Positions 3,353 through 35,221 of a DNA stretch of 52,850 nucleotides are shown piece by piece (the first letter of the stretch is position 1; each line of letters starts with the position of its first letter). Position numbers and translations under genes: made by a program. Source of the DNA: an uncultured Verrucomicrobiales bacterium (lineage in GTDB: Bacteria > Verrucomicrobiota > Verrucomicrobiia > Verrucomicrobiales > Akkermansiaceae); contig CAKZMG010000056.1 in NCBI GenBank assembly GCA_937128235.1, forward strand, positions 1 to 52,850, read 5' to 3'. Below the pieces are notes generated by a model. The model worked only from the letters and a program-made list of their open reading frames with translations, had not been told where the DNA came from and searched no databases.

Positions 3353-3458
3353 GGTTTGCTCGTCAGGAGCTGTGGAGTATTGGCAGATGAATCCCGCCAG
3401 GCCTTAATCGGAGCAACGGTAATTTGTCCAGTATTGCCGCAGTTTCCTGGCACTTTTC
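3353..3458 (+). ncRNA. ffs: Bacterial signal recognition particle RNA (small, 4.5S-type)
   Basis: Intergenic; CCGCCAGG-(10 nt)-AGCAACGGTAA matches the conserved SRP helix-8 symmetric loop with canonical tip length; outer stem GTCAGGAGCTGTGG pairs with CCGCAGTTTCCTGGC. Ends approximate. Confidence 0.75.
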
Positions 3459-13758: not shown

Positions 13759-15141
13759 ATGGATACAGACAATATGAGTGAGGGAGGTAGCAATATTTTC
13801 AATTATGAAAATCAGGAGGCAAAGCAAGAGTTTGTAACTGGTGAGTTTGACAAGAATTGGAGATTGGCAATAGAGGAGCATCTTGAAAAGCATCTAGGTC
13901 CTTGTGAAGGAGTTTTTCACGAGATTCTATCAGTGAATGTGCATATTGATCTGTATTGGTTCAAAGCGACTGAAGAACGACCTTACGTGACAGTGGTATC
14001 TGTAGGGTGTAGTGATAAACCGCTGACCACCCCTGAAGGTGCAGAGATTTTCCAGTATGTTGAGCTGGTCTTATGTCTGCCGGCAGACTGGCAGATGCCA
14101 GATTCAAGTGCTGATACAAATGAGAATGAATATTGGCCGATCCGAGCAATGAAAGAGATTATCCACATTCCCCATAGTTATGGTAGCTTCTTAGCTTATG
14201 GACACACGATTCCAAATGGAAATCCTGCGGAAAATTATCCGGGGACTAGCTTTAATTGTATGCTGTTAGATCAACCCTATCATGAGCCTGAGGAATTCAG
14301 CCAAATGACTTATACTGATGGGCGAATACTTACATTTCTGGCAATGTATCCTATTACTGAAAAAGAAACTGAGATCAAACTCCAAGCAGGAAATGATAGG
14401 CTGATAGAGCTTATGAATCAAAAGGGGATTCTAAACTCAGTGGTGAATGTTGATCGACCATGTTTATCATCCCTACTTGAAGATAGTGATTTCGAACAAA
14501 TGGATAGTCCTGAGATAGAAGAAATATTTACCGATGCCATCACTACTACTAGAGAAAAATTTAAAGCAGAGCAGCCGGCAATGAGTAAGGAACAACAAAA
14601 ACTGTTCAAGCATAGACGACCATTCTGGCTATGGAGAGATAAGAAAAATCGTATCAATGAGGTGTTTAGAGATGCGGAGCTTTTACGGTCACAAGGCACA
14701 GTGGTGTGGGGTCAAATAGTTCAAGCAAATATGCTGCTACATGACCCTAATAATCACCAAAACTGTCCGGCGGCGATCATCTATTCTCTTGATACCTATT
14801 ATGATGGTAACGTGATAGAGTTAGAGGAAATTGCCAGTAGTTTATACGCAGTGAAAGGTGAGGCTACCACCCCGCAATTACAAGAATTTAGCAGGATTCT
14901 AGAAGATGAATACGAAACGAATATGCGTCTTCAGATTCCGCATTCACTAACGGGTGGCCGTGATGTTTATTACACTTGCATCATGGTGCATAGAAACAAC
15001 TTACCGCTACCCTATCTGGGAGCTTCTAGTTTTCCTCTGTTAGTGGCTCCAGAGAAAACTGAGTCAAGCATGATACTACCTTATCCTTTCTGGAGTGATG
15101 CGGCTACAGGGATCTGGTTGTCTATGGCTGATCAGGGTTGA
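13759..15141 (+). CDS. Suppressor-of-fused (SUFU)-like domain protein
   Basis: VTVVSVGCSDKPLTTPEGAEIFQYVELVLCLPADW and following segment resemble bacterial SUFU domains; second half unassigned. Confidence 0.6.
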   Translation: MDTDNMSEGGSNIFNYENQEAKQEFVTGEFDKNWRLAIEEHLEKHLGPCEGVFHEILSVNVHIDLYWFKATEERPYVTVVSVGCSDKPLTTPEGAEIFQYVELVLCLPADWQMPDSSADTNENEYWPIRAMKEIIHIPHSYGSFLAYGHTIPNGNPAENYPGTSFNCMLLDQPYHEPEEFSQMTYTDGRILTFLAMYPITEKETEIKLQAGNDRLIELMNQKGILNSVVNVDRPCLSSLLEDSDFEQMDSPEIEEIFTDAITTTREKFKAEQPAMSKEQQKLFKHRRPFWLWRDKKNRINEVFRDAELLRSQGTVVWGQIVQANMLLHDPNNHQNCPAAIIYSLDTYYDGNVIELEEIASSLYAVKGEATTPQLQEFSRILEDEYETNMRLQIPHSLTGGRDVYYTCIMVHRNNLPLPYLGASSFPLLVAPEKTESSMILPYPFWSDAATGIWLSMADQG

Positions 15142-15198: not shown

Positions 15199-15747
15199 CT
15201 AAAATGGGCTTTCCCAGTTTTTCTGGCTCATTAGATCTTTGATTTCTTCATAAGACAGAGGCTCAAAATCATGACAATCTACCCCTACATCAAGTGATAA
15301 CGAGTCAGAGAGATCCTCTAGCTCACCATGCGTGTGACCGTAGAGATGCCAAGTGCCGTAGTGGCTGGCGTTCCAGACACGCATCGCATAATGAAAAAGA
15401 GCAATGAACCTCACACCCTTAAATGCGTCTGGGTCTGGAACTTCTAGTTCGTGGTAGTCCTTGATCCATTCGAATCTAGAATGACAATCCTCAGCGGCAC
15501 TTTCGTGATTTCCTCGGATGAGATGAATCTTACCATTTAACCGATCTAGTATTTTACGCAACTTGCTAGATGAACATAAACCAACATCGCCAAGGTGATA
15601 AACCATATCATCAGGTCCCACTTTGTTGTTCCATCTCTCGATGATCTCCTCGTTCATTTCTTGTATCGTTTTAAATGGACGATCAGAAAATTTAATAATG
15701 TTTTTATGGCCGAAATGGGTATCTGCCGTGAAAAATATTTTACTCAT
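15199..15747 (-). CDS. Metallophosphoesterase
   Basis: MSKIFFTADTHFGHKNIIKFSDRPF, HLGDVGL, GNHE, YGHTHGE. Confidence 0.9.
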   Translation of the reverse strand: MSKIFFTADTHFGHKNIIKFSDRPFKTIQEMNEEIIERWNNKVGPDDMVYHLGDVGLCSSSKLRKILDRLNGKIHLIRGNHESAAEDCHSRFEWIKDYHELEVPDPDAFKGVRFIALFHYAMRVWNASHYGTWHLYGHTHGELEDLSDSLSLDVGVDCHDFEPLSYEEIKDLMSQKNWESPF

Positions 15748-15749
15748 AA

Positions 15750-16799
15750 TTACTTCTTGTTATTAAATCTATAATGCGAAACAAACCACTCCTCGCCATC
15801 ACGGAAGCCCCACAGTTCGGCGCATGCCATGTAGAAGCAGCGCCAGTAAACCCACCATTTTGTGGCTTGGTCTTTGCCGTAGGTTTCCTCGATGAGTGGG
15901 AATAGTTCTTCTTTATTTTCATCCATGAGGTAGAGCCAGGCGTTACTAGTGCGCTCGTAGTGGGTGCCGTTTACTTGCCAGTGATCGTCTATAGAAAGGT
16001 GATCCTGGAAGTAGAGGAGAAGGTCATCGCTCGGCATCTGTCCGCCGGTAAAAAAATACTTACTCATCCAGTCATCATCACTCTCTACCTCGAAGTGATA
16101 GGAGGTGTCCTTATGAGTGAAAATATGGACGAACAGAGTTCCCTGTGGTTTCAGCCAGCCACTAATTCTCTCTAACAGAAGCTGGTAATTCTTCATGTGC
16201 TCAAACATTTCTACCGAGACCACACGGTCAAATACGCTCTCACCTTCGCCACGATAGTCGATCATGTTCACGGTTTTAATCGTGACGTTTTTCAGCCCAC
16301 GGTCTTCGAGTTGGGAGTTTATAAATTCTCGCTGAGTGTTGGAATTAGAGATAGCGGTGATCTCGGAGTTTGGGAAATGTTTCGCCATCCAGAGTGTGAG
16401 TGACCCCCAGCCGCATCCGAGCTCTAGGATGCGGTCGCCGTCTTTGATAGCAGCGCGTTCACAGGTAAGTTTTAGCATTCTAGCCTCTGATGCTTCGATG
16501 TCTTGACTGGTCTCGCCATCCTTCCAGTAGCCTGAGCTGTATTTTAAATGCGGACCCAGACAGCCTTGGAAGAATTTTGTCGGTAGCTCGTAGTGTTGCT
16601 CATTCGCTTCATCGGTAGCGATGGCGAGCGGGCTATTTTTTAGACCGTTGACGTGTTTGATGAGCGCGGCTTGACGTTCCTCGCAGTTCTCATGGCGGAA
16701 TTTTTCCAGAGTTTTTAGTAGTCGTTTACGGATGCCGAATCGGATGAGCTTATCAGGGATACGGTCGTTTTCTAGCCAGTCGTTGATGTCGATTTTCAT
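15750..16799 (-). CDS. SAM-dependent methyltransferase, coclaurine N-methyltransferase/CFA-synthase-like
   Basis: NEQHYELPTKFFQGCLGPHLKYSSGYW, ILELGCGWGSLTLWMA, VSVEMFEHMKNY. Confidence 0.85.
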   Translation of the reverse strand: MKIDINDWLENDRIPDKLIRFGIRKRLLKTLEKFRHENCEERQAALIKHVNGLKNSPLAIATDEANEQHYELPTKFFQGCLGPHLKYSSGYWKDGETSQDIEASEARMLKLTCERAAIKDGDRILELGCGWGSLTLWMAKHFPNSEITAISNSNTQREFINSQLEDRGLKNVTIKTVNMIDYRGEGESVFDRVVSVEMFEHMKNYQLLLERISGWLKPQGTLFVHIFTHKDTSYHFEVESDDDWMSKYFFTGGQMPSDDLLLYFQDHLSIDDHWQVNGTHYERTSNAWLYLMDENKEELFPLIEETYGKDQATKWWVYWRCFYMACAELWGFRDGEEWFVSHYRFNNKK

Positions 16800-16810
16800 G
16801 GTAATGTATT

Positions 16811-17584
16811 TTAAATTTCTTTTTTAAACCAAGGAATAAAAGCACTCGTGGTCTGTTGATATTCTCTGTAGGCATCTCCTCTGCTTTTCAGCAGTGAGCG
16901 CTCAGTGGGTGGTATGCCAGTCACTTTTGTGAGTAGGAAAATCATTAGCAGGGGAGCATGGAATGTGTAAATGCCCAGTGGCGATGCGGCACAGAAAAGA
17001 TAAATGCCTACCCAGATCACAGCCTCGAAAAAATAGTTCGGATGTCGGCTGTAGTTCCACAGCCCGATGTCACAAATCTTACCTCCACCTTTCTGTTTCC
17101 TAAATAATGCTAGCTGATAATCCGCGATGATTTCACCGATGAATCCGATGACAAAAACAGCGAGACCAATCCACTCTAACAGCTGGATAGTGGCTGCGAA
17201 CTGAGAGGATAAATAGAAAGGTAGAGAGAGCGAGAAAACCAGTGCTGCATTGATGAGGAAAATGATGAGAAAATTTCTGTTAGAATGTTCTCCCCATTGT
17301 TCGCGCAGGATTTTGTAGCGAGAGTCTTCATCTGGATGATGCGCGTAGATTCGTTTCGCTAAATGAACGCCTAGCCTAAGCGACCAGATGAGAGCCATGC
17401 CGAGAAGGATTACTTCTCTGAGATCATTTCCCTGATGCGCAGAGACGTAGATGAAAACGGGGATGCCGAGGCTGAGCGCCCACATCGCATCCACGATGCT
17501 GGCGTTCTTGATCTTGATAGAAGCTAACCAGCCGATCAGAAATAGAATCGTGAGAATTAAGGCACTGAGGATGAGAACATTCAT
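16811..17584 (-). CDS. DUF1295 (steroid 5-alpha-reductase-like) membrane protein
   Basis: Multi-TM; SIVDAMWALSLG, GLWNYSRHPNYFFEAVIWVGIY. Confidence 0.85.
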   Translation of the reverse strand: MNVLILSALILTILFLIGWLASIKIKNASIVDAMWALSLGIPVFIYVSAHQGNDLREVILLGMALIWSLRLGVHLAKRIYAHHPDEDSRYKILREQWGEHSNRNFLIIFLINAALVFSLSLPFYLSSQFAATIQLLEWIGLAVFVIGFIGEIIADYQLALFRKQKGGGKICDIGLWNYSRHPNYFFEAVIWVGIYLFCAASPLGIYTFHAPLLMIFLLTKVTGIPPTERSLLKSRGDAYREYQQTTSAFIPWFKKEI

Positions 17585-18099
17585 GCGGCAGATTTCTTCA
17601 AGTGTTTATTCATGTATTTTCTGAGCAGAAAGCGAAAGATGAAATACAAAGGAATAGCGAACCAGGGAGCAATGATCGCCCACGCCTCAATCCCGTAGAG
17701 AGCAGTCATCCCGAAGTCTCTGGCAAACTGCATCGGGTCATCTTTAAATTTCACAAGCAACTCAGGAATACTAAATGGAATATGGGGTGCACCATTCATC
17801 GTCTCGCCAATCCGTATAAAAACCAAGATCATCCCCAGATGGAGTGGGTAAAAGATGCTCTTAAAAAGCAACAAGAACGGCAAATTTAACCTCAAAACAG
17901 AGCCAACTAATAGACTTAATAAATTCGTTGTGCCCAGCACCGGGAACATAGAAATCACTGGCGATACAGCCATCGCCAGTGAAACCTTCTCCACCGATGC
18001 CCCACGTGTGAGCTGGTTTTTGATAGGCTTCACCACAACCTTCCTCCACAGCCTGCGGAAAGTGCTTTCTGGTGCTTGAACTGTTTGTCCTTCTGTCAA
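17581..18099 (-). CDS. DUF2062 membrane protein
   Basis: SVEKVSLAMAVSPVISMFPVLGTTNLLSLLVG; overlaps DUF1295 start by 4 bp. Confidence 0.75.
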   Translation of the reverse strand: MTEGQTVQAPESTFRRLWRKVVVKPIKNQLTRGASVEKVSLAMAVSPVISMFPVLGTTNLLSLLVGSVLRLNLPFLLLFKSIFYPLHLGMILVFIRIGETMNGAPHIPFSIPELLVKFKDDPMQFARDFGMTALYGIEAWAIIAPWFAIPLYFIFRFLLRKYMNKHLKKSAA

Positions 18100-18130
18100 A
18101 TCTTAGATGTTATCTTACCGACCTACCGGC

Positions 18131-19381
18131 CTATCGACTAGGGGTAAGTTTTTCGTTGTTGGGTTTGGTGTAGATGGCTTGGACTACGCTGATGTTTCTT
18201 GTTTGGAAGGCGGCTTCGCAATATTTTAAGTAGTAGTTCCATTTGCGGATGAAGGTCTCGCTGAAGCCTTGTTGTTTGACTTCTGGGAGGGCGGCGTTGA
18301 AGCGATCATACCACTCGGAGAGGGTGCGGGCGTAGTCTAGTCCCATGTCTTCTACGTGGAAGGTGGAGAGCTCTCCGGTTTTCTTCATGACTTGGCTGAT
18401 GCGTCCGAGTGAGAGCAAGAGTGAACCCGGGAAGATGTGGCGCTGGATGAAGTCAACGCCGCTTTTTAGGGCTTCGTATCTGCTGTCTGGAACGGTGATG
18501 ATCTGGATGCCTAGTGCTCCATCAGGCTTGAGTAGTTCATTGCATTTCTTGAAGTAGCCGGGGAGGAATTTATCGCCGACTGCTTCTAACATTTCTATGG
18601 AGACGATGTGATCGAAGCTGCCTTTTATCTGGCGGTAGTCTTGGAGGCGGAGGTCTATTTGATCTTCTAATCCTTCGTTCTTTACGCGTTGGATAGCGTA
18701 GTTGAGTTGTTCTTGAGAAATGGTGACTCCGGTTATTTTACAGCCGTAGTTCTTGGCAGCATGACAGGCGAATCCTCCCCAGCCACAGCCTATTTCTAAT
18801 ACTTCGTCTCCTGGTTTGAGTTGGAGCTTGCGGCAGAGCGCATCGTATTTTTCGTATTGAGCCTCTTCTAGGGTGGAGTCTGCTTTGGCGAAAATTCCGC
18901 TGGAGTAGGTCATCGAGGGATCTAGGAAGAGCTTATAGAAATCATTTCCCAGATCATAGTGCTCGGAGATGTTTTTCTTGCTGGTGCGGATGGTGTTGGC
19001 TCGGGCGATGTGGAATAGCTTGTTGAGGAACTTCATTTTGTTCACTGCCTTGAGCTTGTTAGAAGAAGCATTCACACCCATTTTCGCTTTCATATTTCTG
19101 ATGAACCAAGTGATGACTGCCTTGATGTCTGGGGTGTCCCAGACTTTTGCCATGTAGGCTTCACCTAGCCCGATGTTGCCATAGGCTACGCATTGTCTGA
19201 AAAATTCGTTGTCGTCATTGAGGTGGATCTCAGCTTCTATTTCATGATCTTTAGCTCCGTATTGGGTTTCGGTGCCATCACTGTAGCGGAGAAGTAGTCC
19301 ACCGGTGGGCATGCTGGAGAAGAGTTTGTGAATGACTTTTTGTTGCCAAATTTGCTTAGTTTTTTCTAGGGCGGCGGGCAT
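18131..19381 (-). CDS. cfa: Cyclopropane-fatty-acyl-phospholipid synthase family methyltransferase
   Basis: HYDLGNDFYKLFLDPSMTYSSGIF, VLEIGCGWGGFACHAA, IVSIEMLEAVG. Confidence 0.92.
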   Translation of the reverse strand: MPAALEKTKQIWQQKVIHKLFSSMPTGGLLLRYSDGTETQYGAKDHEIEAEIHLNDDNEFFRQCVAYGNIGLGEAYMAKVWDTPDIKAVITWFIRNMKAKMGVNASSNKLKAVNKMKFLNKLFHIARANTIRTSKKNISEHYDLGNDFYKLFLDPSMTYSSGIFAKADSTLEEAQYEKYDALCRKLQLKPGDEVLEIGCGWGGFACHAAKNYGCKITGVTISQEQLNYAIQRVKNEGLEDQIDLRLQDYRQIKGSFDHIVSIEMLEAVGDKFLPGYFKKCNELLKPDGALGIQIITVPDSRYEALKSGVDFIQRHIFPGSLLLSLGRISQVMKKTGELSTFHVEDMGLDYARTLSEWYDRFNAALPEVKQQGFSETFIRKWNYYLKYCEAAFQTRNISVVQAIYTKPNNEKLTPSR

Positions 19382-19382
19382 T

Positions 19383-20180
19383 TTATTTTTTTGTTAGAGA
19401 TTTATGCGGGCGCAGAACTTCAGTTTGGTCGGAGGCTGTGCCTGATTTGTTAGAGATGGGGAACTTCCTTATCCACATGAGCAGAGCGTGCCAGTGAATG
19501 AGGAAAATGACACGTAATGTGAGCAGGGGATAGCGAATAATGTACCAGCTGAGACGAAGTGAGCTAAAGGCTTTCTGCTGCCCGCGTATGGTGCTGACTA
19601 AGACTAGCCCTTCTGCATCTTCATCGTTGATATTGACGGACCACTTTTCGTTTCGCGGACCTATCTGGAAGTCGAAGTGGTCGGTCACTTTTGAAAATGG
19701 CGAGACGTAGAAATCCTTTGCGGTTTTAAGGCGAAACCAGCCTTGTTTTTTGGAGTCTTTCTGGTCGATAAGAAACATTTTCTTTTCAAGGAATGTGTTT
19801 CCTACTTCAGCGACAACGGCAATGACATTAGCAGAATCATCTTCTAGGTAATAGAATGATACGGGATTAAACTGATACCCGAAGATGCGTGGGAATGTCT
19901 GCAAGGTGATGCGGGAGGGAGCTACTAGATCAACATCCTGAGTGGATAGAAAATCTAACAGCTTTTGTTTTATAGTGTGGGAGGTAGAATCTTGTAGGTA
20001 GTCACTGTCTCTTATGGAGTAAATGTTCCAGCGGTTTCTGCTGAAGAGCCAGTGATTCTTAGCGAGTGTGTCCAGCTCATCGAGGTCTAGCGACATCATG
20101 AATACCGAGTAGGCAAACTGACGTTTCACCGGTTTGATGCGTTTGTGGAAAATGTTGCATTGGTAGAGTGATGTGTTCAT
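19383..20180 (-). CDS. DUF1365 family protein
   Basis: ORF 19383-20264; start reassigned to MNTSLYQCNIFHKRIKPVKRQF at 20180, giving a 4-bp overlap with the upstream gene; FPRIFGYQFNPVSFYY is diagnostic. Confidence 0.88.
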   Translation of the reverse strand: MNTSLYQCNIFHKRIKPVKRQFAYSVFMMSLDLDELDTLAKNHWLFSRNRWNIYSIRDSDYLQDSTSHTIKQKLLDFLSTQDVDLVAPSRITLQTFPRIFGYQFNPVSFYYLEDDSANVIAVVAEVGNTFLEKKMFLIDQKDSKKQGWFRLKTAKDFYVSPFSKVTDHFDFQIGPRNEKWSVNINDEDAEGLVLVSTIRGQQKAFSSLRLSWYIIRYPLLTLRVIFLIHWHALLMWIRKFPISNKSGTASDQTEVLRPHKSLTKK

Positions 20181-21472
20181 TTCCAAACACTCCTTCCAAG
20201 TAAATTTTCGCAGAGATTTACTGCAGAAAGTAGTCCATCTTCGTGGAACCCATAGCGCTGCCACGCGCCACAGAAAAACGTATTTGTTTCCTGTTTTCCT
20301 GCCTCATGCAGTCGTGGTATTTCGTCTTGGGCAGCGATGGCATTGAGACCAAAGAGCGGGTGACGATACTCGATAGTTTTAATGACATTCTTCAACTCGC
20401 TCTGCGGATTGATAGTCACGAAATATTGCTCGTTTTCAGAGACACCTTGGAGCGAGTTCATCCAGTAGTGAGTGGAGCTTCTGAGACCATCTGGGGTGTC
20501 ACCTATTTCATAGTTCCATGATGCCCAGCAGGGTTTATTTTTTGGCATCACGCTGGTGTCTGTGTGCATCACTGCGGTGTTTGGCTGATACGGAAATGCG
20601 GATAAAATTGCTGATTCAGTTACGGTAGGATCTGAAAGAAGCTTCAGTGAGTCATCGCCATGGGTAGCGAGGATGACTTGGTCAAATACTCTGGTCTCAT
20701 TTTGAGAACTTACCTCTACGCCTTCAGCGGTGCGCCTTACTGCGGTTACTGGATTATTGATCTGGATTTTATCTTTAAATGGCTGGATTAATTTTTCCAC
20801 ATAGCATTTCGCACCGCCACAGACAGTTCGCCATTGCTTGCGTTTTTCTACAGCGAGAAATCCGTGATTTTTCCAGAATCTCATCAGTGTGATTGCCGGA
20901 AATTGTTCTATTTTCTCTGGCGGGCTAGACCAGACGGCAGATGCCATCGGCACGAGATACCAGCGTAGGAAATTTTCCCCATAGCCGCGGTGCTCCACAT
21001 ACTCGCGCAGTGTCATGTGATGGAGGGCTACGTTTTCTATGTCTTCCAGAGCATCGGTGTTGAAGCTCTTGATTTTGAAAAGCATGCGCCAGAATTTCAG
21101 ATTAAAGAGGTTCTTTCGTTGCCCGAAAATCTGGTTCATTTTGCCTCCGTTAAATTCAAGCCCATCAGGGAGATGATTCACTGAAAACGACATGTCCGTC
21201 TTCTTCGTCTCGACTCCTAACTCAGCGAATAGCCGCGTCAAATGCGGGTAGGTATCCTCATTGTAAACCATGAATCCGGTATCGATGGGGACGTCTTTTT
21301 CGCCTTCCTTCACGGTCACGGTGTTGGTGTGCCCACCGATGTAGTCGTTCGCTTCGTAGAGTGTGAGCTCTGCGTCGTCTTTCAGAAAATGCGCACAGCC
21401 TAAACCAGAAATACCAAGACCGATGATGGCGATGGTAGGTTTTTCTCTGGTGATGTTAGATTCTAAATCCAT
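20177..21472 (-). CDS. FAD-dependent oxidoreductase (NAD(P)-binding, amine-oxidase-like)
   Basis: IAIIGLGISGLGCAHFLKD Rossmann motif, YEANDYIGGHTNTV. Confidence 0.9.
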   Translation of the reverse strand: MDLESNITREKPTIAIIGLGISGLGCAHFLKDDAELTLYEANDYIGGHTNTVTVKEGEKDVPIDTGFMVYNEDTYPHLTRLFAELGVETKKTDMSFSVNHLPDGLEFNGGKMNQIFGQRKNLFNLKFWRMLFKIKSFNTDALEDIENVALHHMTLREYVEHRGYGENFLRWYLVPMASAVWSSPPEKIEQFPAITLMRFWKNHGFLAVEKRKQWRTVCGGAKCYVEKLIQPFKDKIQINNPVTAVRRTAEGVEVSSQNETRVFDQVILATHGDDSLKLLSDPTVTESAILSAFPYQPNTAVMHTDTSVMPKNKPCWASWNYEIGDTPDGLRSSTHYWMNSLQGVSENEQYFVTINPQSELKNVIKTIEYRHPLFGLNAIAAQDEIPRLHEAGKQETNTFFCGAWQRYGFHEDGLLSAVNLCENLLGRSVWK

Positions 21473-21480
21473 GAGTGATA

Positions 21481-22437
21481 CTATTTCTTGTGCTCTTCTA
21501 ACAGTTCTGGTGGGACCTTACGTAAGTTTCTAATGAGTCCCAGCCATGACATGATTTTCAAACCGTAGTAAGTGATGTCTATCTCCCACCACCTAAATCC
21601 CTGCCTGGTGCTGTGTGGGTATCGGTGGTGGTTGTTGTGCCAGCCTTCACCGAGTGTGATGGCTGCTAGCAGAGCGCTGTTTTTGCTGTCATCGTCTGTC
21701 TTAAATCTCTGCTTGCCCCAGACGTGAGCTAAGGAATTAATAAATAGAGTTCCATGTAGAAGTGCGACTGTACTCACGAAAAATGTCCACACGAAAAACT
21801 GCGCAGCTGTGACTCCGAGAGACGGATAAACGGTTTCCAGAAAATAACCAATGCCATACATCGCGGCTCCGTAGAGGTAAGGTACGAGCTGATCGAAGCG
21901 GTTCAGAAACACTAGTTCAGGGTATTTTGCGAGGTCCTTGATCTGATCATAGTCGGTAGGGAAGTTTCGTTTACAGGTGATCCAGCCGATGTGTGACCAC
22001 CAGAAGCCTTGCACGCCTGGAGAGTGGAGGTCTTCTTCTGTGTCTGAGTGCTTGTGATGGTGGCGGTGATTTGCTGCCCACCAGAGTGCGCCTCGCTGCA
22101 TGGCTGTATTTCCCCATACTGCGATGATGAACTGCATGGCTCTGCTCGTCTTAAAGGTGCGGTGAGAAAAGTAGCGATGGTAAAACCCCGTGATGGCGAA
22201 CATGCGTAGGACGTAGAGCAAGATCGCGCCGATCACTGCTGTGGGGCTCCAGCCTACCCAGATGAGAAAGACGAGTCCGAGGTGGATGATGATGAAAGGG
22301 ATGCAACGCTCCCAGTCCACTTTTTCTTCGAGCAACTTGGGATTTTCTATGCGTTTGTAATCAGAGTCCAGCCAGTGCCCGAGCATGTCTTTTAGCCTGG
22401 ATGCTGTCTTGGGTTTATGATCATTTCCATTGTCCAT
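21481..22437 (-). CDS. Acyl-CoA/fatty acid desaturase
   Basis: Histidine boxes HRYFSH, HRHHHK, HNNHH; multi-TM. Confidence 0.92.
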   Translation of the reverse strand: MDNGNDHKPKTASRLKDMLGHWLDSDYKRIENPKLLEEKVDWERCIPFIIIHLGLVFLIWVGWSPTAVIGAILLYVLRMFAITGFYHRYFSHRTFKTSRAMQFIIAVWGNTAMQRGALWWAANHRHHHKHSDTEEDLHSPGVQGFWWSHIGWITCKRNFPTDYDQIKDLAKYPELVFLNRFDQLVPYLYGAAMYGIGYFLETVYPSLGVTAAQFFVWTFFVSTVALLHGTLFINSLAHVWGKQRFKTDDDSKNSALLAAITLGEGWHNNHHRYPHSTRQGFRWWEIDITYYGLKIMSWLGLIRNLRKVPPELLEEHKK

Positions 22438-22446
22438 AATGCGCTG

Positions 22447-23106
22447 TTAGAGGCGTTTTTTGATCATGCGGATACCTCCACCGATGATGGGTACGTGCTC
22501 AAACATGCCTGCGGATGAGTCCCAGAAATCTTGGTGAAGCAAAACTTTTCCGTCTGTATCAAACACCACGTGCGACATCCCGATGGATACAATTTCCTTA
22601 CCACTGGCGAGCTTGGGAGCTGAGAATTTCATCGTCCAGCGGATGTAGTAGCCATTGCCTTTTGTGGACTTAGAAATGTCATCGATTTCTAAAGAATAAC
22701 TAGTCATCGTCTGGGAGGTTTTGATGAAATGCTGTTTTATCTCTTCTCGATTAGTGAGTGTTTTTAGCGTGTCATTGAGGTAAGCATTCTCTGCATAAAC
22801 ATTTGCTACTTCGCGTTCTATAAATTCTTCAGATCCGATGCCTTGGAGAAATTTTCCGAAGCGGTCTAATGACTGTTTCGCATCTGCTTCGCTCAGATCA
22901 GCTGCCTGAGAACTAGCAGAGGTTTTCGCTTTTTGATAAGTAATCGCTTGATCATTCATGGTATTATTTTGGCTACAGCCAGTGATACAGAATAGCGCAA
23001 TGCATAAGGAGAATCCCACCCATCCCAACCAAGGGAAAATGGCTCTTATCTTGGGCCCTATTTTGGCTCCAAACCGAGACGGCTTTTTATGATCACTAGT
23101 CTTCAT
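22447..23106 (-). CDS. NTF2/SnoaL-like protein with N-terminal membrane anchor or lipobox
   Basis: Hydrophobic segment ending ITGCSQ; NTF2-like fold pattern. Confidence 0.65.
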   Translation of the reverse strand: MKTSDHKKPSRFGAKIGPKIRAIFPWLGWVGFSLCIALFCITGCSQNNTMNDQAITYQKAKTSASSQAADLSEADAKQSLDRFGKFLQGIGSEEFIEREVANVYAENAYLNDTLKTLTNREEIKQHFIKTSQTMTSYSLEIDDISKSTKGNGYYIRWTMKFSAPKLASGKEIVSIGMSHVVFDTDGKVLLHQDFWDSSAGMFEHVPIIGGGIRMIKKRL

Positions 23107-23175
23107 TCCACTATAGAACGAAACATGAGTGATTTCAGATGCCTAAAAAGAATTTAGAGGTAAGTTTTTTTAGAA

Positions 23176-24375: not shown

Positions 24376-24702
24376 CTATTCTTTCAACAATTCTAGTAAT
24401 TCTCCAATATTATGGTTCTTTTCTAGCTGATGTCTGAGGCGGTATTTGTAATCAATTTTATATACATTACGTCTTCCTTCTCGCTCGCGGGTGATGACTT
24501 GGGCTTCCACTAGCTCATTTAATATCCGCTGAACTGATCTCTCCGTGACGCCAATACTCAGCGCAAGACTTCGCACGGTGGTTTCTTCGTCTCGATGTAA
24601 ACAGAGGATCACATGGAGATGATTTGTCAGGAATGTCCAGTTCCCAGTGTCCTTTTTTTTCGATTCTTGTTTAGTCTTTATTATTTTTTTTGCTGTTTTC
24701 AT
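24376..24702 (-). CDS. Winged-helix transcriptional regulator
   Basis: TTVRSLALSIGVTERSVQRILNELVEAQVITREREGRRNVYKI. Confidence 0.82.
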   Translation of the reverse strand: MKTAKKIIKTKQESKKKDTGNWTFLTNHLHVILCLHRDEETTVRSLALSIGVTERSVQRILNELVEAQVITREREGRRNVYKIDYKYRLRHQLEKNHNIGELLELLKE

Positions 24703-27265: not shown

Positions 27266-27976
27266 ATGAAGCGTAAAACAATTCTAATAGTAGGCGGGAA
27301 CAGTGGGATAGGAGCTGAGGTTTTGGATCAATTCTTGCAGAGAGATCACGCTGTGCATTTAGCGCTTAGAAATCCGGAAGAGATCACCCAACCAGTGGCG
27401 AGCAAGCAGTTTTATGATGCGCTTCAAGGAGGAGAGAATGAGCTGGAATTTCCAGATCATCTTGATGCCATCGTTTACTGTCCGGGCACTATTGCGCTGA
27501 AGCCATTTCACCGCACAGATAGTGAACAGATGAGCCGTGATATGGAAGTGAACGCTTTCGGGGCAGCGCGGATCATACAGGCGGCACTTCCAATGTTGAA
27601 AAAATCCACATCAGACGGTGGAGCATCGGTCATCATGTTCTCATCTGTAGCGGCACAGACTGGTCTGGCATTTCATGCTTCTATTAGTATGGCGAAGGCA
27701 GCAGTGGAGGGGCTGACACTGAGTCTGGCGAGTGAGCTAGCTCCAGCTGGAGTAAGAGTGAATGCGATTGCTCCCTCTCTGACAGATACGCCATTGGCTG
27801 AAATGCTGCTGAACTCAGATGCCAAGCGCGAAGCCTCCGCCGCCAGACACCCACTGAATAAAGTGGGGACCGCAGCTGGGGTGGCGAGCTTAGTTGGCTA
27901 CCTAGTGAGTGATGATGCCGCGTTTGTCACAGGACAGATATTCAAAGTGGATGGCGGGATGAGCGCGCTGAGATAA
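27266..27976 (+). CDS. Short-chain dehydrogenase/reductase
   Basis: ILIVGGNSGIGAEV, SSVAAQTGLAFHASISMAKAAVEGL. Confidence 0.92.
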   Translation: MKRKTILIVGGNSGIGAEVLDQFLQRDHAVHLALRNPEEITQPVASKQFYDALQGGENELEFPDHLDAIVYCPGTIALKPFHRTDSEQMSRDMEVNAFGAARIIQAALPMLKKSTSDGGASVIMFSSVAAQTGLAFHASISMAKAAVEGLTLSLASELAPAGVRVNAIAPSLTDTPLAEMLLNSDAKREASAARHPLNKVGTAAGVASLVGYLVSDDAAFVTGQIFKVDGGMSALR

Positions 27977-28035
27977 TACTGCCTGCTGAAGCGTCTTCGC
28001 ACTGGTTGGAAGAACCGCAAACGAAAAAATTAATT

Positions 28036-29526
28036 ATGAAAATAGGACTTATTTATCCACATCAATTATATGAAAATCATCCAGTGATGAAAGCTGCGGA
28101 TAAGGTGTATCTAGTGCATGAGCCACTAATTTTAGGCGGAGATGAAGAATGGCCGCTGGTGCCTCATGCTAAGAAATTGTTGCTGCATAAGGCATCCATG
28201 GATCTGTATGCAAATAAATATGAACTTCAAATAGTGAATGGATACGTTGATTTGGATCTAACAGATGTAGATGAGATTATCGTTTGTCGATTAGTAGATG
28301 ATGTGCTGACGCGTAGATTGATAGAGTTTGGCGAATCTCAAAACATTACGATTACGTATTTAGAAACGCCAGGATTTGTGACTCCTAGTGAGTGGGGGAA
28401 AGCATTTTTTGAGGGAAAGAAGAAGCCATTCATGAAGACTTTTTATGAGGCTCAGAGAAAGCGGATGGGCATTCTTGTGGATGAGAATAATCAGCCGGAA
28501 GGGGGGAGATGGAGCTATGATTATGAGAACCGTAAGAAATTTCCTCTGAAAGAAAACCCACCAAATGAGCCGATGGTGAGGCAGACGAAAAATGAAAAAA
28601 AGATCATTCTAGAAACTACTGCTAAACTCAATGAAGCAAACTGTGAAGTTTTTGGAAGCTATGAAGATTTCATCTATCCGGTAAGCCATGAGAGTGCTCG
28701 TGAATGGCTAGATGAATTTTTGAAGGAACGGTTTTCATTGTTTGGAACCTATGAGGATGCTCTGACTCACAGGAGTAAATTTCTCTACCATTCAGTGCTC
28801 ACGCCTATGCTGAATACTGGGCTGCTGACTCCACGAGAAGTAGTAGAAAGAGCATTAGAAGTGGGGCAGGAAAATAAGGTGGAGATTAATAATATTGAGG
28901 GATTTATCAGGCAGATCATTGGCTGGCGTGAGTTTATGGCGATCATGTATGAGAAGCATGGCAGATACTTGCGCACCCAGAATTTCTGGGGATTTACGGA
29001 GGATATGCCAGTATCTATTTATCATGGTAAGACAGGCATTCCGATTGTTGATGACGTTTTAAAGAAGGTGCACGATGATGCTTATGCGCACCACATCGAA
29101 CGGCTCATGGTATTAGGAAACTTCTTCCTGTTACTTCGAGTAAAGCCAGACGCGGTGTTTCGCTGGTTTTCCGAAATGTTTATAGATGCCTACGACTGGG
29201 TGATGGTTCCGAATGTCTATGGAATGAGTCAATTTAGCGATGGCGGTCTCCTAGTGACCAAACCTTACCTCAGTGGTTCTAATTATCTGAGAAAAATGTC
29301 TGACTACAAAACTGGCGAGTGGTGTGAAGTATGGGACGCGTTATTCTGGAGCTTTATTGATGACTACAGAGACTTCTTTTCAAGCCAGTATAGAATGAAA
29401 ATGATGGTCAGTCATCTAGTGAAAATGGGTGGTGATAAGCTGGCGAATCATCATCGCGTAGCAGCAGAATTTAGAGAAAAACTACAACTAGGAGGGTTCC
29501 TAGGAGATGAGTCTAACTTGCTATGA
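28036..29526 (+). CDS. Cryptochrome/photolyase-related protein (FeS-BCP clade)
   Basis: NNIEGFIRQIIGWREFMAIMY, DAYDWVMVPNVYGMSQFSDGGLLVTKPYLSGSNYLRKMSDY; start MKIGLIYPHQL chosen over upstream Met. Confidence 0.9.
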   Translation: MKIGLIYPHQLYENHPVMKAADKVYLVHEPLILGGDEEWPLVPHAKKLLLHKASMDLYANKYELQIVNGYVDLDLTDVDEIIVCRLVDDVLTRRLIEFGESQNITITYLETPGFVTPSEWGKAFFEGKKKPFMKTFYEAQRKRMGILVDENNQPEGGRWSYDYENRKKFPLKENPPNEPMVRQTKNEKKIILETTAKLNEANCEVFGSYEDFIYPVSHESAREWLDEFLKERFSLFGTYEDALTHRSKFLYHSVLTPMLNTGLLTPREVVERALEVGQENKVEINNIEGFIRQIIGWREFMAIMYEKHGRYLRTQNFWGFTEDMPVSIYHGKTGIPIVDDVLKKVHDDAYAHHIERLMVLGNFFLLLRVKPDAVFRWFSEMFIDAYDWVMVPNVYGMSQFSDGGLLVTKPYLSGSNYLRKMSDYKTGEWCEVWDALFWSFIDDYRDFFSSQYRMKMMVSHLVKMGGDKLANHHRVAAEFREKLQLGGFLGDESNLL

Positions 29527-29748: not shown

Positions 29749-31161
29749 ATGAAATTACTAAGCATCCTATTTTTAGCAGTCTTCCATTTATCCGCCTCAG
29801 CAGCAGAAAAACCTAACATTCTCTGGGTTTTTGTGGAGGATTTATCGCCCTGGATGGAGACTTATGGGGATGAGGTCAATGCTGGAAAAACACCTGCTCT
29901 CACCGCGATGAGCAAGAATGGTGTGCAGTTTTCGCGCTGTTTCGTGCCTGCTCCAGTCTGCTCTGCGTGTCGCTCTGCGATGCTCACCGGTGTCTATCAG
30001 ACTACCACGGGGACTCATCACCATCGCTCAGCACGCACTAAGGAGGCTCCTATTTATTTACCCAAAGGGATAAAGACGCTGCCGCAGATTTTTAAGGAAA
30101 ATGGCTATGCTACTTTTAATAAAGGGAAGGATGATTATAATTTTACCTATAAAAGAGGAGATCACTACACGGTGGGAAATGTGAGACAAAAACAGAGAGG
30201 TTCTGCTGGTAAAAAAGGGAATAGCCCGTGGAGGGATGTTCCAGAAGGGACGCCATGGTTTGGTCAGATCCAGCTGAGAGGGGGGAAGGCGAATACTAAG
30301 AAACTCACAGATAAAGTGGATCCGTCTAAGATGAAAGTGCCTCCGTATTTCCCGGATGAAGAGATGTTTAGAGCGGAATGGGCGCACCACTACGACACGG
30401 TGCGAGTCACTGACATGGATATGAAAAAGATCATGGATGGGCTAAAAAAAGATGGTCTGTTAGAGAATACGATTGTGTTCTTTTTTTCCGACCATGGAAA
30501 TAATCATTCACTGAGGCATAAGCAATTTTGCTATGAAGGAGGGGTGCATGTGCCGCTTATTATTTCAGGACCTGGGATTGATAAAAATGTGGAGCGTAGG
30601 GAGATGATCAGCGCGCTGGATATATCTGCTACTACCCTCGCATTAGCTGGTTTAGAGCTTCCTAAATATCTGCATGGTCAGGATCTCTTTGCTAAAGATT
30701 ACAAGCAGCGTGACCATGTCATCTCAGCACGCGATCGATGTGACTACACGATCGACCGCATCCGCACGGTGCGCACGGAGAAGTATCGCTATATCAAGAA
30801 TTTTCTAACAGATCGGATCCTACTCCAGCCACAATACCGAGATGGTCAGAAGCCAACCAAGCGTCTGCGTGAGCTGCATGCTAGTGGCGAATTAGGTAAA
30901 ATTCCTGAGTGGGCATTTTTCGGAAAGCGCCCAGCTGAGGAACTCTACGATCTGGAGAAAGATCCTCATCAAGTGAATAATCTCGCAGGTGATCCCGTAT
31001 TTGCGGAAGAGCTAAAAAAGCATCGTGATCTGCTGAATACTTGGATCAAAGATACAGGTGATAAAGGTGAGCAGCCTGAGGCGGAAGATCAACTCCGAGC
31101 TACCTTTAAACGCTGGGGAAAACGGTGTGTGAATCCAGAGTTCGATGTTTTTAAAAACTAA
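29749..31161 (+). CDS. Exported sulfatase
   Basis: Signal peptide; FGly motif CSACR; FFFSDHGNNHSLRHKQFCYEGGVHVPLII. Confidence 0.92.
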   Translation: MKLLSILFLAVFHLSASAAEKPNILWVFVEDLSPWMETYGDEVNAGKTPALTAMSKNGVQFSRCFVPAPVCSACRSAMLTGVYQTTTGTHHHRSARTKEAPIYLPKGIKTLPQIFKENGYATFNKGKDDYNFTYKRGDHYTVGNVRQKQRGSAGKKGNSPWRDVPEGTPWFGQIQLRGGKANTKKLTDKVDPSKMKVPPYFPDEEMFRAEWAHHYDTVRVTDMDMKKIMDGLKKDGLLENTIVFFFSDHGNNHSLRHKQFCYEGGVHVPLIISGPGIDKNVERREMISALDISATTLALAGLELPKYLHGQDLFAKDYKQRDHVISARDRCDYTIDRIRTVRTEKYRYIKNFLTDRILLQPQYRDGQKPTKRLRELHASGELGKIPEWAFFGKRPAEELYDLEKDPHQVNNLAGDPVFAEELKKHRDLLNTWIKDTGDKGEQPEAEDQLRATFKRWGKRCVNPEFDVFKN

Positions 31162-31216
31162 AAAGTAGCAATGAGCTCCCATGGAATATCCAACCAGAGC
31201 AGAGTGAAATTTTATT

Positions 31217-32383
31217 CTATGTGTTAGCAAATTTCTTTCTAAATTCTCCAGGAGTCTCGCCAGTTTCTCTGCTGAAAAAAACTACGAAGGGGCGCGCATC
31301 TGTGAAGCCCACGCTGAATGCAATCTCGTCTATCGTTCTCTGCGTCGTCAGGAGTAGCTGTCTAGCAGTTTCGACCCTGATTTCGCGAATATGTTGCGCC
31401 GGGCTAGCGCCTGTCATTGCCCGGTAACGTTTCTCAAAGGTGCTGCGAGCCAGAGGTAAGGATTGCACTAGCTCATCTACAGTCAGTCCTGAGCAGGCAT
31501 TTTCTCGTATGATCGACCTAGCTTGCAGCACGATCATATCTGGGTTTTTCTCACCCACGGTTGATTGCCTTACGCGGATCTCTTGAGCTTTCGGTCTAGG
31601 GTGTAAATCTTCTATTTCTCTGCCTTCTATGAGATTGATCAGAAGCTGCATCGCTTGGACGCCCATCTTAGTCGTTGGAACGACTATGCTCGACAGCTCC
31701 GGAGTGCAGAGCCGCGCATTAAGAGTGTTAAACCTACCTAGGACTCCCACCTCTTCGGGTATTTTCACCCCTAAATCTGCGCAATAATCCACGAGCAAGC
31801 GACCCCGAATATCATGGAACGTATAGACGCCAGTGCTGCCCTTTGAATTGAGTAATTTGTCTTTCAAGTCAGGGGCACTTTTCTTGAAGTAATCTGTATC
31901 TCCAGGGCTAATGCCATCGGGCACACTAATCATCCAGCATGGTAGATCTCGTTTAGCGCACTCTTCAGTAAATGCTTGATATATATCTTGTGTGAAAAGA
32001 GTTTCATTCGTTCCCAAGACCCCGATGTTTGTGTAATTTAAATTGGAAAAATGCTCAACTGCTAGAGCTGCTATCGACTGATAATCTAGCCCTACGCTCG
32101 GGTGGTGTTTCTTGACTGAGTTGAAAATATTCACCACTGGCACATCCATAGCATCTAGCCAATCCGCCTGAAAAAGATCATCATCATAGGATACCAAGAT
32201 TCCATCGGGCGTGTAATCTTTAGGGAATACCAGTGGTTTATTGAAATCATGCGATATGAAATTTAAGAAATGGCAGTGACTTCTAATGCTGTGGATAGAC
32301 AAAACGCCCTCCATTACATCATTCAGAAATGAATACCAATTTGGAAAAATAACAGCGATGTTGTAGTGTTTTTTTTGCGGCAT
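31217..32383 (-). CDS. AraC-family XylR-like transcriptional regulator with LacI-type sensor domain
   Basis: Periplasmic-binding-like N-terminus; C-terminal AraC HTH (SCSGLTVDELVQSLPLARSTFEKRYRAMTGASPAQHIREIRVETARQLL region). Confidence 0.88.
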   Translation of the reverse strand: MPQKKHYNIAVIFPNWYSFLNDVMEGVLSIHSIRSHCHFLNFISHDFNKPLVFPKDYTPDGILVSYDDDLFQADWLDAMDVPVVNIFNSVKKHHPSVGLDYQSIAALAVEHFSNLNYTNIGVLGTNETLFTQDIYQAFTEECAKRDLPCWMISVPDGISPGDTDYFKKSAPDLKDKLLNSKGSTGVYTFHDIRGRLLVDYCADLGVKIPEEVGVLGRFNTLNARLCTPELSSIVVPTTKMGVQAMQLLINLIEGREIEDLHPRPKAQEIRVRQSTVGEKNPDMIVLQARSIIRENACSGLTVDELVQSLPLARSTFEKRYRAMTGASPAQHIREIRVETARQLLLTTQRTIDEIAFSVGFTDARPFVVFFSRETGETPGEFRKKFANT

Positions 32384-32509
32384 GAGGTAGGGCGAAAGAA
32401 TGAAGGAACGATGAAAATTGTTGATCTAATAAAATGGTAGATTTTGTAGAGCCATGTAAGTTTATCCTCAAAGCTTATTGGACTCCATTTTAAAAAGCAA
32501 ACCGAAACA

Positions 32510-33961
32510 ATGATGAAAAAAACAATTCTACTTCTTCTATCTCTGACCAGTATCAGTGTCAGTGCCGCTACGCAGAAGCCTAACATTATATACATTCTGG
32601 CAGATGACTTAGGATACAATGAACTAGGCAGCTACGGACAGAAAAACATCAAGACACCACATATTGATGCTCTGGCGAAGTCTGGTATAAAGTTTTCTCA
32701 GCACTACTCTGGCTCAGCAGTCTGCGCACCTACTCGCGCTTGTTTTATCACTGGCCAGCACAGTGGGCACTCACAGGTGCGCAATAACTCGGCAGGGATA
32801 TTTAAAAACCCGGCGAGCAAGAAAAACCCAGCTGGGGAAGGACAGTATCCTCTGGAGCGAGGCACTGAAACCATCGGAAAAGTGCTACAGAAAGCAGGCT
32901 ACGAGACCTGCGCTGTGGGTAAGTGGGGACTGGGTGGACCGTTTAATGAAGGCTCACCAAATAAGCAGGGTTTTGATCACTTTTTTGGCTATCTATGCCA
33001 ACGCCAGGCACACAACTATTTCCCAACTCACTTGTGGAGAAATGAGAAGATGGTGGAGCTTGATGGCAATGAAGGCGGCAAACAATTACTCGGGAAACAT
33101 TATGCCCCTGACCTCATCAACAAAGAAGTGTTAGAGTTTATCGATAAGAATCATAAGAAGCCATTTTTTCTCTATTATGCTACGATTATTCCTCATGTTT
33201 CTCTTCAGGTTCCTGAGAATGATCCAGCCTTAGCTGAGTACCGCAAGCAGTGGCCAGACGAGGAACCATACACTGGAAACCGAGGTTATATTCCGAACAA
33301 AACACCACATGCTACCTACGCAGCTATGATCACAAGGATGGATCGGTACATCGGAAATGTAGTGGCTAAGCTGAAGGAAAAGGGAGTCTATGAAAACACT
33401 CTCATCATCTTCACATCAGACAATGGACCTACCAATGCAGGTGGAGGCGGTGCTTCTTACTTTAACTCAGCTGGAGATCTCCGCGCATCAAAAGGCTCGC
33501 TCTACGAGGGTGGGATTCGCGTGCCATTCGTGGCTTCCTGGCCTGGTAAAATAAAGCCGGGCAGTGAGTCAGATCACATCTCAGCTGGCTGGGATATGCT
33601 CGCTACGTTTGCTGAGATTTCCGGTGAGAAACTGAAGTCTAAGACTGACGGGCTATCTATTCTTCCTTCTCTAACAGGTAAAGGTGAGCAGCAAGTGCAT
33701 GATCATCTCTACTGGGAGCTAGGCAGCCAGCAGGCAGTGCGTAAGGGAGACTGGAAGGCCTATCGCCGCAGTGGAGGTAAGGTTTTTCTCTATGATCTTT
33801 CTAAGGACATCGGAGAGAAAAATAATTTAGCAGGTAAGGAGGAAAAGATTTTAGCAGAAATGACAGAGCTCTTTACCTCATCAAGAACCGATCACAAAGA
33901 CTTCAGAGATCCTGCTCAGCCACGCCAGAAGAAAACAAAGAAAAAGAAGGGTAAAAAATAA
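32510..33961 (+). CDS. Exported arylsulfatase
   Basis: Signal peptide; PNIIYILADDLGYNELGSYGQ, FGly motif CAPTR, FTSDNGPTNAGG. Confidence 0.94.
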   Translation: MMKKTILLLLSLTSISVSAATQKPNIIYILADDLGYNELGSYGQKNIKTPHIDALAKSGIKFSQHYSGSAVCAPTRACFITGQHSGHSQVRNNSAGIFKNPASKKNPAGEGQYPLERGTETIGKVLQKAGYETCAVGKWGLGGPFNEGSPNKQGFDHFFGYLCQRQAHNYFPTHLWRNEKMVELDGNEGGKQLLGKHYAPDLINKEVLEFIDKNHKKPFFLYYATIIPHVSLQVPENDPALAEYRKQWPDEEPYTGNRGYIPNKTPHATYAAMITRMDRYIGNVVAKLKEKGVYENTLIIFTSDNGPTNAGGGGASYFNSAGDLRASKGSLYEGGIRVPFVASWPGKIKPGSESDHISAGWDMLATFAEISGEKLKSKTDGLSILPSLTGKGEQQVHDHLYWELGSQQAVRKGDWKAYRRSGGKVFLYDLSKDIGEKNNLAGKEEKILAEMTELFTSSRTDHKDFRDPAQPRQKKTKKKKGKK

Positions 33962-34006
33962 AAGAAGTTAAACTCTTTTATTTTGCAGCTGGATAGTCTA
34001 TAGGGT

Positions 34007-35221
34007 TTGGCGATGAAGAATGAGCCTAAATTTGCGAGTGAACCCTACCGAGTGTTTTTCCCAGTAGCTATTTTGGCAAGTGTGCTTGGGGTGATGTTGT
34101 GGCCGATGTTTTATGGTGAGTACATCAGTTTTTATCCATCGTTAGCCCATGCTAGGATGATGATTGAGGGGTTTGTGGGAGGATTTGCGATTGGTTTTCT
34201 GGGGACGGCAATGCCGAAGATGCTGGGAGTTCAGACGTTTAGATTATGGCAGGTGCTGCTCATGCTGGCGCTGCATCTGAGCTTGTGTGTAGCGCACCTG
34301 CTGGGTAAGTGGCAGCTTGGTGATGGTGTATTCGTAGCGCTAATGGCGCTCATGTTTAGCATCCTGATCCCCAGAATAATGCAGCGTAAACAACTTCCGC
34401 CTCCTGGAATGGTACTGGCGGGGATGGGATTGCTTTGCGGGATGTTCGGAGCGTTCTGGGGTGCGTTTTTAGAGGATTATGATGGGAGCTATTATGGGTT
34501 TTTGTTTAGTCAGAGATTGCTGTATCAGGCGTTTATTTTACTGCCTCTGTTAGGTGTGGGGAGCTTTATGTTCCCGATGATTTTAGAGACTGAGGATAAA
34601 GGCAAGCTGAGTGGTAAAGCGTGGCGTAGGAGAGCATATCTGGCATGGATAGCCGGTGTGCTGATCATCGGTTCTTACTGGTTTGAAGTGATGGGCTACA
34701 CGCGCGCTATGTCTGGGTGCAGGTTTATCATTGCGGGGTTATGGTTTGCTAGTGAATGCAATTGCCTGAGGTGGAAGGTGGGCAGAGGAGTGATGGCACA
34801 GAGCCTGCGCGCAGGGATAGGCTGCGTGCTTTTAGCATTGCTGGCAGTAGCTCTAGTGAACAAACAGAAGGTGGCACTGGATCATATTTTATACATCGGT
34901 GGGTTCGGTTTAGTAACAATGATAGTGGCGACGCGGGTGATCTTTGGGCACAGTGGGCAGGGTGATAAATTTAAACGCTGGATCAAGCCGCTGGTGGTGT
35001 GTGTGGCACTACTTTTATTAGGTATGGCGACTCGGGTATCCGCAGATTTTATCCCAGTGATGCGCATTTCTCACCACGTCTATGCAGCCATTTGCTGGGT
35101 GGTGGTGAGCGTGATCTGGGGGATCGCTATCTTGCCTTCTGTTAGAAAATTACCTCCAGAGAAAAAGGAGATGAAGGCTAAGAAGGGCTTCGATATGATG
35201 GATGTGGATTTTAGGAAGTAG
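34007..35221 (+). CDS. NnrS family membrane protein
   Basis: 12-TM-like; EPYRVFFPVAILASVLGVMLWP, HARMMIEGFVGGFAIGFLGTAMPK. Confidence 0.85.
   Translation: MAMKNEPKFASEPYRVFFPVAILASVLGVMLWPMFYGEYISFYPSLAHARMMIEGFVGGFAIGFLGTAMPKMLGVQTFRLWQVLLMLALHLSLCVAHLLGKWQLGDGVFVALMALMFSILIPRIMQRKQLPPPGMVLAGMGLLCGMFGAFWGAFLEDYDGSYYGFLFSQRLLYQAFILLPLLGVGSFMFPMILETEDKGKLSGKAWRRRAYLAWIAGVLIIGSYWFEVMGYTRAMSGCRFIIAGLWFASECNCLRWKVGRGVMAQSLRAGIGCVLLALLAVALVNKQKVALDHILYIGGFGLVTMIVATRVIFGHSGQGDKFKRWIKPLVVCVALLLLGMATRVSADFIPVMRISHHVYAAICWVVVSVIWGIAILPSVRKLPPEKKEMKAKKGFDMMDVDFRK

Follow-up and report, generated by a model that had tools for sequence, protein, structure and literature searches.

The window analysed here, a stretch of 52,850 nucleotides spanning positions 1 to 52,850 of contig CAKZMG010000056.1 (assembly GCA_937128235.1) from an uncultured Verrucomicrobiales bacterium of the family Akkermansiaceae, carries nine minus-strand open reading frames (ORFs) across positions 15199-23106, as found by ORF listing and domain search. 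In order of transcription, these encode a SnoaL-like lipoprotein, an acyl desaturase, a flavin adenine dinucleotide (FAD) enzyme, a DUF1365 protein, a CMAS-family methyltransferase, a DUF2062 protein, a DUF1295 protein, a second CMAS-family methyltransferase, and a metallophosphoesterase. An initial annotation, made from the sequence alone, had described nine minus-strand genes with 4-bp overlaps and had named their domains; both descriptions were borne out, and the two ATGA overlaps (between the FAD enzyme and DUF1365 genes at 20177-20180 and between the DUF2062 and DUF1295 genes at 17581-17584) are exact. As the former overlap places the start of the DUF1365 gene at ATG 20180, a GTG at 20264 was rejected as its start. 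As judged from orthology, all known genes for the conversion of ordinary fatty acids of the membrane into the dimethyl furan type are present in the operon, and we are fairly confident that it is a consolidated operon for dimethyl furan fatty acids, controlled by a ChrR-like extracytoplasmic function (ECF) sigma factor.

The gene cluster is a real, conserved operon. The block SnoaL-desaturase-FAD-DUF1365-CMAS-(DUF2062)-DUF1295-CMAS recurs across 20 related loci, all from relatives of the same order as the host, and the arrangement is thus not due to chance. A search of relatives for co-conservation, as the initial annotation had suggested, found the core of FAD enzyme and DUF1365 genes in all 20 loci, the first CMAS gene in 19, the DUF1295 and second CMAS genes in 18 (one of the two losses coincides with a contig end), the acyl desaturase gene in 16, the DUF2062 gene in 13, and the SnoaL lipoprotein gene in 12. 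By contrast, the metallophosphoesterase gene (15199-15747, minus strand; Metallophos_2, phrog_547) has a counterpart in none of them; it was rejected as a pathway gene and probably only adjoins the pathway. The conserved unit is therefore 15750-23106 together with a promoter at 23117-23142, and the proposal of an operon of up to nine genes holds for eight of them. The SnoaL/NTF2-like lipoprotein (22447-23106, minus strand; PF12680, E 2.5e-7; lipobox ITGC) is encoded by the first gene here and in most relatives and is also found near proteobacterial clusters; it and the small DUF2062 membrane protein (17581-18099, minus strand; PF09835, E 5.4e-10) may be pathway accessories. Inside the DUF2062 gene (17955-17982) lies an inverted repeat of 12 bp, followed by a tail that contains T, which may be a chance occurrence.

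The pathway to which these genes can be compared has been proven in Rhodobacter sphaeroides and Rhodopseudomonas palustris, where four enzymes act on phospholipid chains to form furan fatty acids with one or two methyl groups, namely UfaM (a CFA-like, S-adenosylmethionine (SAM)-dependent methyltransferase), UfaD (a desaturase), UfaO (a DUF1365 protein), and FufM. Formation of the products, 9M5- and 9D5-furan fatty acids, was demonstrated in vivo and partly also in vitro (Lemke et al. 2020, PMC7380195). As a reference, the genome of Rhodopseudomonas sp. BR0M22, a member of the R. palustris group, was searched with the window proteins; this genome had been located with the fluoroacetate dehalogenase RPA1163, used as a probe only (97% identity over 302 amino acids). 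BR0M22 contains a UfaD-UfaO-UfaM cluster as well as two more CMAS genes, and three CMAS-family genes are likewise reported for R. palustris (PMC7380195); the third copy in BR0M22 is a classical cyclopropane fatty acid (CFA) synthase. The window UfaD orthologue (20177-21472, minus strand; PF01593 Amino_oxidase, E 1.4e-22), predicted to be an FAD-dependent dehydrogenase of the methylated chain, shares 41% identity over 411 amino acids with the R. palustris-group enzyme and has the GxGxxG motif. The UfaO orthologue (19383-20180, minus strand; PF07103, E 1.9e-69), predicted to be an O2-dependent, furan-forming oxygenase, shares 36% identity over 232 amino acids with its R. palustris-group counterpart and has no sequence relative in the PDB; its confident model (pLDDT 93) is a beta-barrel that weakly resembles Ycf58 and nitrobindin (template modelling (TM) score 0.26-0.37 on the query), matches that were too weak for a cofactor to be named from structural likeness. 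UfaO-UfaM gene fusions of about 653-666 amino acids occur in eight loci from several families of the phylum (L203, L213-L217, L225, and L227); other long fusion-like open frames in GC-rich genomes were mostly frame artefacts, and only the UfaO-UfaM fusions held up. The membrane acyl desaturase (21481-22437, minus strand; PF00487, E 5.4e-20), with the three histidine boxes HRYFSH, HRHHH, and HNNHH, is the predicted source of a cis-monoene and probably supplies the monoene substrate; since the genome encodes another acyl desaturase, on contig C263, the one in the operon may have a specialised role. Hence, the kinship that the initial annotation saw to sets of FAD oxidoreductase, DUF1365, and CFA-like genes in singlet-oxygen regulons, and to furan fatty acids, is upheld, while its view that the final lipid product is unknown gives way to a prediction, as the four core enzymes match UfaM, UfaD, UfaO, and FufM and hence point to dimethyl furan fatty acids (PMC7380195).

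With regard to the second methylation, the coclaurine N-methyltransferase-like protein of the initial annotation (15750-16799, minus strand) is indeed a second CMAS-family methyltransferase and can be refined to a FufM orthologue. It shares 45% identity with the R. palustris-group FufM, and its best match in BR0M22 is the CMAS gene that directly follows the DUF1295 gene with a 4-bp overlap; because of this position, the BR0M22 gene is the probable RPA0924 (FufM) and its DUF1295 neighbour the probable RPA0923, a gene that Lemke et al. deleted without taking it up in their main text. In a tree of 43 proteins, the window protein groups with the R. palustris-group FufM (support 97/85), and plant N-methyltransferases form a separate clade (100/99) outside FufM. 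Among 289 genomes of the phylum surveyed for co-occurrence, with statistics that ignore phylogeny, 64 have UfaO and 53 have FufM orthologues, and each of these 53 also has UfaO (Fisher p about 1e-47). An alternative is that the pathway ends at a monomethyl furan (or methyl diene) and that this enzyme methylates another substrate, such as an amine or a head group; the protein shares 38% identity with the coclaurine and pavine N-methyltransferases of plants and keeps the EHMKNY active-site block. Yet it is closer to the R. palustris-group FufM, falls within the FufM clade and not among the plant enzymes, and belongs to a family never found without UfaO in the survey, so that we regard this alternative as unlikely. 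In addition, Arabidopsis AT4G33110 has been equated with FufM in a later paper (PMC10940516). As the coclaurine N-methyltransferase-like enzyme is a FufM orthologue, we predict that the pathway ends in a dimethyl furan fatty acid.

DUF1295, a steroid 5-alpha-reductase-like membrane protein (16811-17584, minus strand; PF06966, E 6.4e-64), is a near-obligate partner of the furan pathway and is predicted to be NADPH-dependent. In the survey, where strong matches were counted, 59 genomes have DUF1295, 58 of them together with UfaO (Fisher p about 1e-52). On plasmids, DUF1295 lies within 600 bp of FufM for 43 of 44 FufM copies, and the remaining record has two DUF1295 places, one of which was examined; where FufM is encoded elsewhere, DUF1295 is found together with UfaM and the desaturase (loci L220, L221, and L226). 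A literature search found no paper assigning DUF1295 a role. Structure comparison of the DUF1295 model (pLDDT 95.6) gives PbSRD5A (7c83), a steroid reductase with bound NADPH, and ICMT as matches of good probability but weak E-value; against 7c83, the probability is 1.00 with a TM score of only 0.53, and the N-terminal half was unaligned in a comparison of the QEY substrate-carbonyl motif. The NADPH ligands of transmembrane helices 5 and 6 of PbSRD5A are N159, D163, R170, N192, Y193, and E196 (PMC7815742); in a profile alignment, the last five correspond to Asp155, Arg162, Asn183, Tyr184, and Glu187 of DUF1295, and N159 is replaced by Glu. Asp155, Asn183, and Tyr184 are invariant in 41 sequences, with Arg/Lys and Glu/Gln at the other kept ligand positions. 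DUF1295 is thus likely a reductase.

Such a reductase could in principle reduce the methylated olefin or diene, so that the operon would yield, instead of a furan, a saturated acid with a methyl branch in mid-chain (or a mixture of products). This would agree with the resemblance of DUF1295 to the NADPH-dependent ene-reductases within the steroid 5-alpha-reductase family and with its tight linkage to both methyltransferases. We consider this very improbable, since the furan maker UfaO, the best-conserved partner, would serve no purpose if the product were reduced, and since furans accumulate in R. palustris, where DUF1295 nevertheless lies beside fufM (PMC7380195). More tentatively, and with more doubt than confidence, DUF1295 may be an unrecognised fifth enzyme of the furan pathway in bacteria and green algae, a membrane NADPH reductase that either prepares an intermediate or acts on the spent furan lipid to detoxify or recycle it. 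On quenching singlet oxygen, a furan is turned into a reactive ene-dione, whose alpha,beta-unsaturated ketone is also the group reduced by steroid 5-alpha-reductases; it is because of this shared group that DUF1295 could act on the spent lipid. In Chlamydomonas reinhardtii, the genes for CFA1, CFA2 (also listed as CPLD27, a coclaurine N-methyltransferase), DUF1365, and DUF1295 need SAK1 for singlet-oxygen induction (PMC4067076). The same families are co-induced there, though in a eukaryote and from separate genes, and a furan product does not come up in the excerpted passages of that study; this co-induction speaks for the furan reading of the operon as a whole and suggests that DUF1295 accompanies the pathway as far as green algae.

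The first CMAS-family protein (18131-19381, minus strand), labelled a CFA synthase in the initial annotation, is better described as a UfaM orthologue, predicted to methylate an acyl double bond with SAM. It shares 46% identity with the R. palustris-group UfaM and groups with it in the tree (support 100/99). E. coli Cfa holds a bicarbonate ion through Glu239, His266, and Tyr317 (PMC11387697); in E. coli numbering, the window protein keeps the Glu and Tyr ligands, and His266 is replaced by Gln. Glu236, Ala240, and Gln266 are found in 33/33 cluster UfaM proteins (the window and R. palustris-group proteins included) as opposed to 0/3 classical CFA synthases, which have Gly, His, and His at these positions, and this difference sets the olefin-methylating UfaM apart from an ordinary cyclopropane synthase. 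Although the best solved-structure matches of this CMAS-family protein are CFA synthases and cyclic fatty acids besides the furan intermediate were reported for Halomonas UfaM in E. coli (PMC12089945), ordinary cyclopropane synthesis amid otherwise unrelated lipid genes is hardly credible given the substitutions His266 to Gln, His240 to Ala, and Gly236 to Glu shared with the R. palustris-group UfaM, the position in the UfaM clade, and the neighbouring UfaD and UfaO in 19/20 related loci. The initial annotation had named products limited to ordinary cyclopropane fatty acids as an outcome that would speak against it; the UfaM residues answer this point in part.

Neither an ECF sigma factor nor a ChrR gene is present on the window contig, in agreement with the initial annotation; instead, contig C233 of the same genome encodes an ECF sigma factor and an anti-sigma factor with a ChrR cupin domain (PF12973, E 6.2e-17), in which the cupin metal motif HxHx3E is present as HDHHGVE. 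ChrR has an N-terminal zinc motif, HxxxCxxC, which was not found in the first 90 residues of six anti-sigma orthologues, and the anti-sigma factor scores 43.9 bits against TIGR02451, below the cut-off of 124.5; for both reasons, "ChrR-like" here denotes resemblance and not membership. Orthologues of the ECF/cupin pair adjoin the operon in three relatives (G002, G009, and G011), divergently and with a short-chain dehydrogenase/reductase (SDR) gene, and in two of these with a photolyase gene as well. Within the genus, the cupin is absent from 4/4 genomes without the operon and present in 6/8 with it; the two operon-bearing genomes without the cupin are 58% and 83% complete. A conserved trio of ECF sigma factor, ChrR-like cupin, and alpha/beta hydrolase was seen in two genomes in which the ECF/cupin pair lies away from the furan operon (L210:5677-7887, on C233 of the window's genome, G000, and L239:634-2835).

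The predicted ECF sigma site of the operon, GCATCT-N16-CGTT (23117-23142, minus strand), is the sole copy in the window, where 0.11 are expected. With the same spacing, GCATCY-N16-CGTT lies upstream of the operon in 7/7 genus genomes that contain that region and upstream of the ECF sigma gene in 6/6 that have this gene. In G003, the opposite strand carries a second motif, GCATCC-N16-CGTT, close to the sigma gene (L238, near 1982), which possibly marks another regulon member. The first ATG of the operon is about 10 bp after the motif in the window and a short way after CGTT, which is -10-like, in several genus genomes, and this proximity suggests a leaderless or very short-leader mRNA. Scans for sigma-70 promoters (18 found against 13.5) and terminators (15 against 9.3) were both near background, and a helix-turn-helix gene at 24376-24702 was not favoured as a dedicated regulator, being upstream only in G005. 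In view of the ECF pair on C233, its adjacency to the operon in three relatives, and the common promoter motif, regulation probably does not differ from that of singlet-oxygen regulons, contrary to what had been supposed from the window.

Compared with the known systems, the four enzyme families of the R. sphaeroides and R. palustris pathway (PMC7380195) are the same and their sequence features are conserved, and the R. palustris-group genome likewise has DUF1295 directly before fufM. By contrast, R. sphaeroides has ufaM apart from ufaD-ufaO, and the R. palustris group has fufM-DUF1295 apart from ufaDOM, whereas in the window a single operon unites the four enzyme genes and DUF1295 with those for an acyl desaturase, DUF2062, and a SnoaL lipoprotein. 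A nearly identical arrangement is a plasmid cluster of Acinetobacter sp. WY4 (NZ_CP053948.1; L024), which also includes the desaturase and has the same order, desaturase-UfaD-UfaO-UfaM-DUF1295-FufM; it differs in being without DUF2062, in having SnoaL and regulators on the other side, and in adjoining a two-component system instead of an ECF-ChrR pair. In the ECF/ChrR singlet-oxygen regulons of Proteobacteria such as Burkholderia anthina (L025) and Rhizobium tropici (L027), the sigma and anti-sigma genes lie beside the UfaD/UfaO/UfaM/FufM genes; here, the cupin has no N-terminal zinc motif and scores below the TIGR02451 cut-off, and in the window's own genome the two genes are on a different contig from the operon.

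Onto the gene identities, orthologies, co-occurrences, and common promoter motif observed here, we transfer the reactions of the proteobacterial enzymes (Lemke et al. 2020), and it is by this transfer that we infer each step of the following route. The desaturase would make a cis-monoene on membrane phospholipid chains; UfaM would then put a SAM-derived methyl group at the double bond and shift this bond; UfaD, with FAD, would take away two hydrogens, leaving a methyl-diene with conjugated double bonds; UfaO would insert an O2-derived oxygen and close the furan ring; and FufM would add a second methyl group to the ring, with DUF1295 as a membrane-embedded, probably NADPH-dependent partner. Photo-oxidative or singlet-oxygen stress would free the ECF sigma factor from its cupin anti-sigma factor and allow for transcription from GCATCY-N16-CGTT. 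The initial annotation, partly supported as a whole, had likewise proposed a multistep modification of the acyl chain; its order of desaturation, methylation, and reduction is replaced by desaturation, methylation, dehydrogenation, oxygenation to a furan, and a second methylation. Several points weigh against the proposed route. The furan product in this lineage is a prediction from gene content, and the sequence identity of UfaO to its reference is modest (36%). As FufM-like enzymes also share 38% identity with alkaloid N-methyltransferases of plants, the substrate of FufM is inferred from context. Furan formation as such may not need DUF1295, because UfaM, UfaD, and UfaO sufficed in published work in an R. 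sphaeroides background. Finally, the signal sensed by the anti-sigma factor may differ from that of ChrR, since the N-terminal zinc motif is lacking and the TIGR02451 cut-off was missed.

Further genes in the window include two conserved, divergent neighbours of the operon on the plus strand, namely an SDR oxidoreductase (27266-27976; divergent from the operon in G002, G005, G009, and G011), which is a probable member of the same stress response, and a photolyase-related protein, DPRP (28006-29526; PF04244, E 2.4e-35; near the operon in G005, G009, and G011). Photolyase genes also lie beside the Acinetobacter and Cupriavidus clusters, and relatives have an NmrA-like/DUF2867 gene between those for SDR and DPRP (L033:12880-14355) that is missing in the window. 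Beside the operon end is a gene for a SUFU-domain protein (13759-15141; PF05076, E 2.4e-35), of a family whose best-known members are from animals. A weak match to a Planctomycetes/Verrucomicrobia-type domain model in the window, together with PEP-CTERM-like proteins, would fit a host in Verrucomicrobiota, near Akkermansiaceae. Two sulfatases, an AraC-type regulator with a periplasmic-binding domain, NnrS, and a formylglycine-generating enzyme are encoded at 29749-38385, a probable sulfated-glycan locus. Other features are a DksA/YteA-like protein whose long N-terminal part is repetitive and rich in Lys and Ala (40991-42172; tandem repeats 41045-41619), an alpha-2-macroglobulin-like protein of 2054 amino acids (45057-51221), and a bacterial small signal recognition particle RNA (3361-3455; RF00169).

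Furan fatty acids are scavengers of radicals and singlet oxygen in fish, plants, and microbes, and to our knowledge their microbial sources are poorly known. The furan pathway, its link to singlet oxygen, and a nearly identical gene order on an Acinetobacter plasmid are already known, while a literature search found no report of the pathway in this lineage; what is new is the lineage, the complete consolidation in one operon, the promoter evidence, and the quantified partnership with DUF1295. This lineage would thus have the dimethyl pathway encoded in full by a single compact operon, tied by a promoter motif to a sigma factor of the photo-oxidative-stress type, and the role of DUF1295, which co-occurs almost without exception, is testable by adding or removing a single gene.

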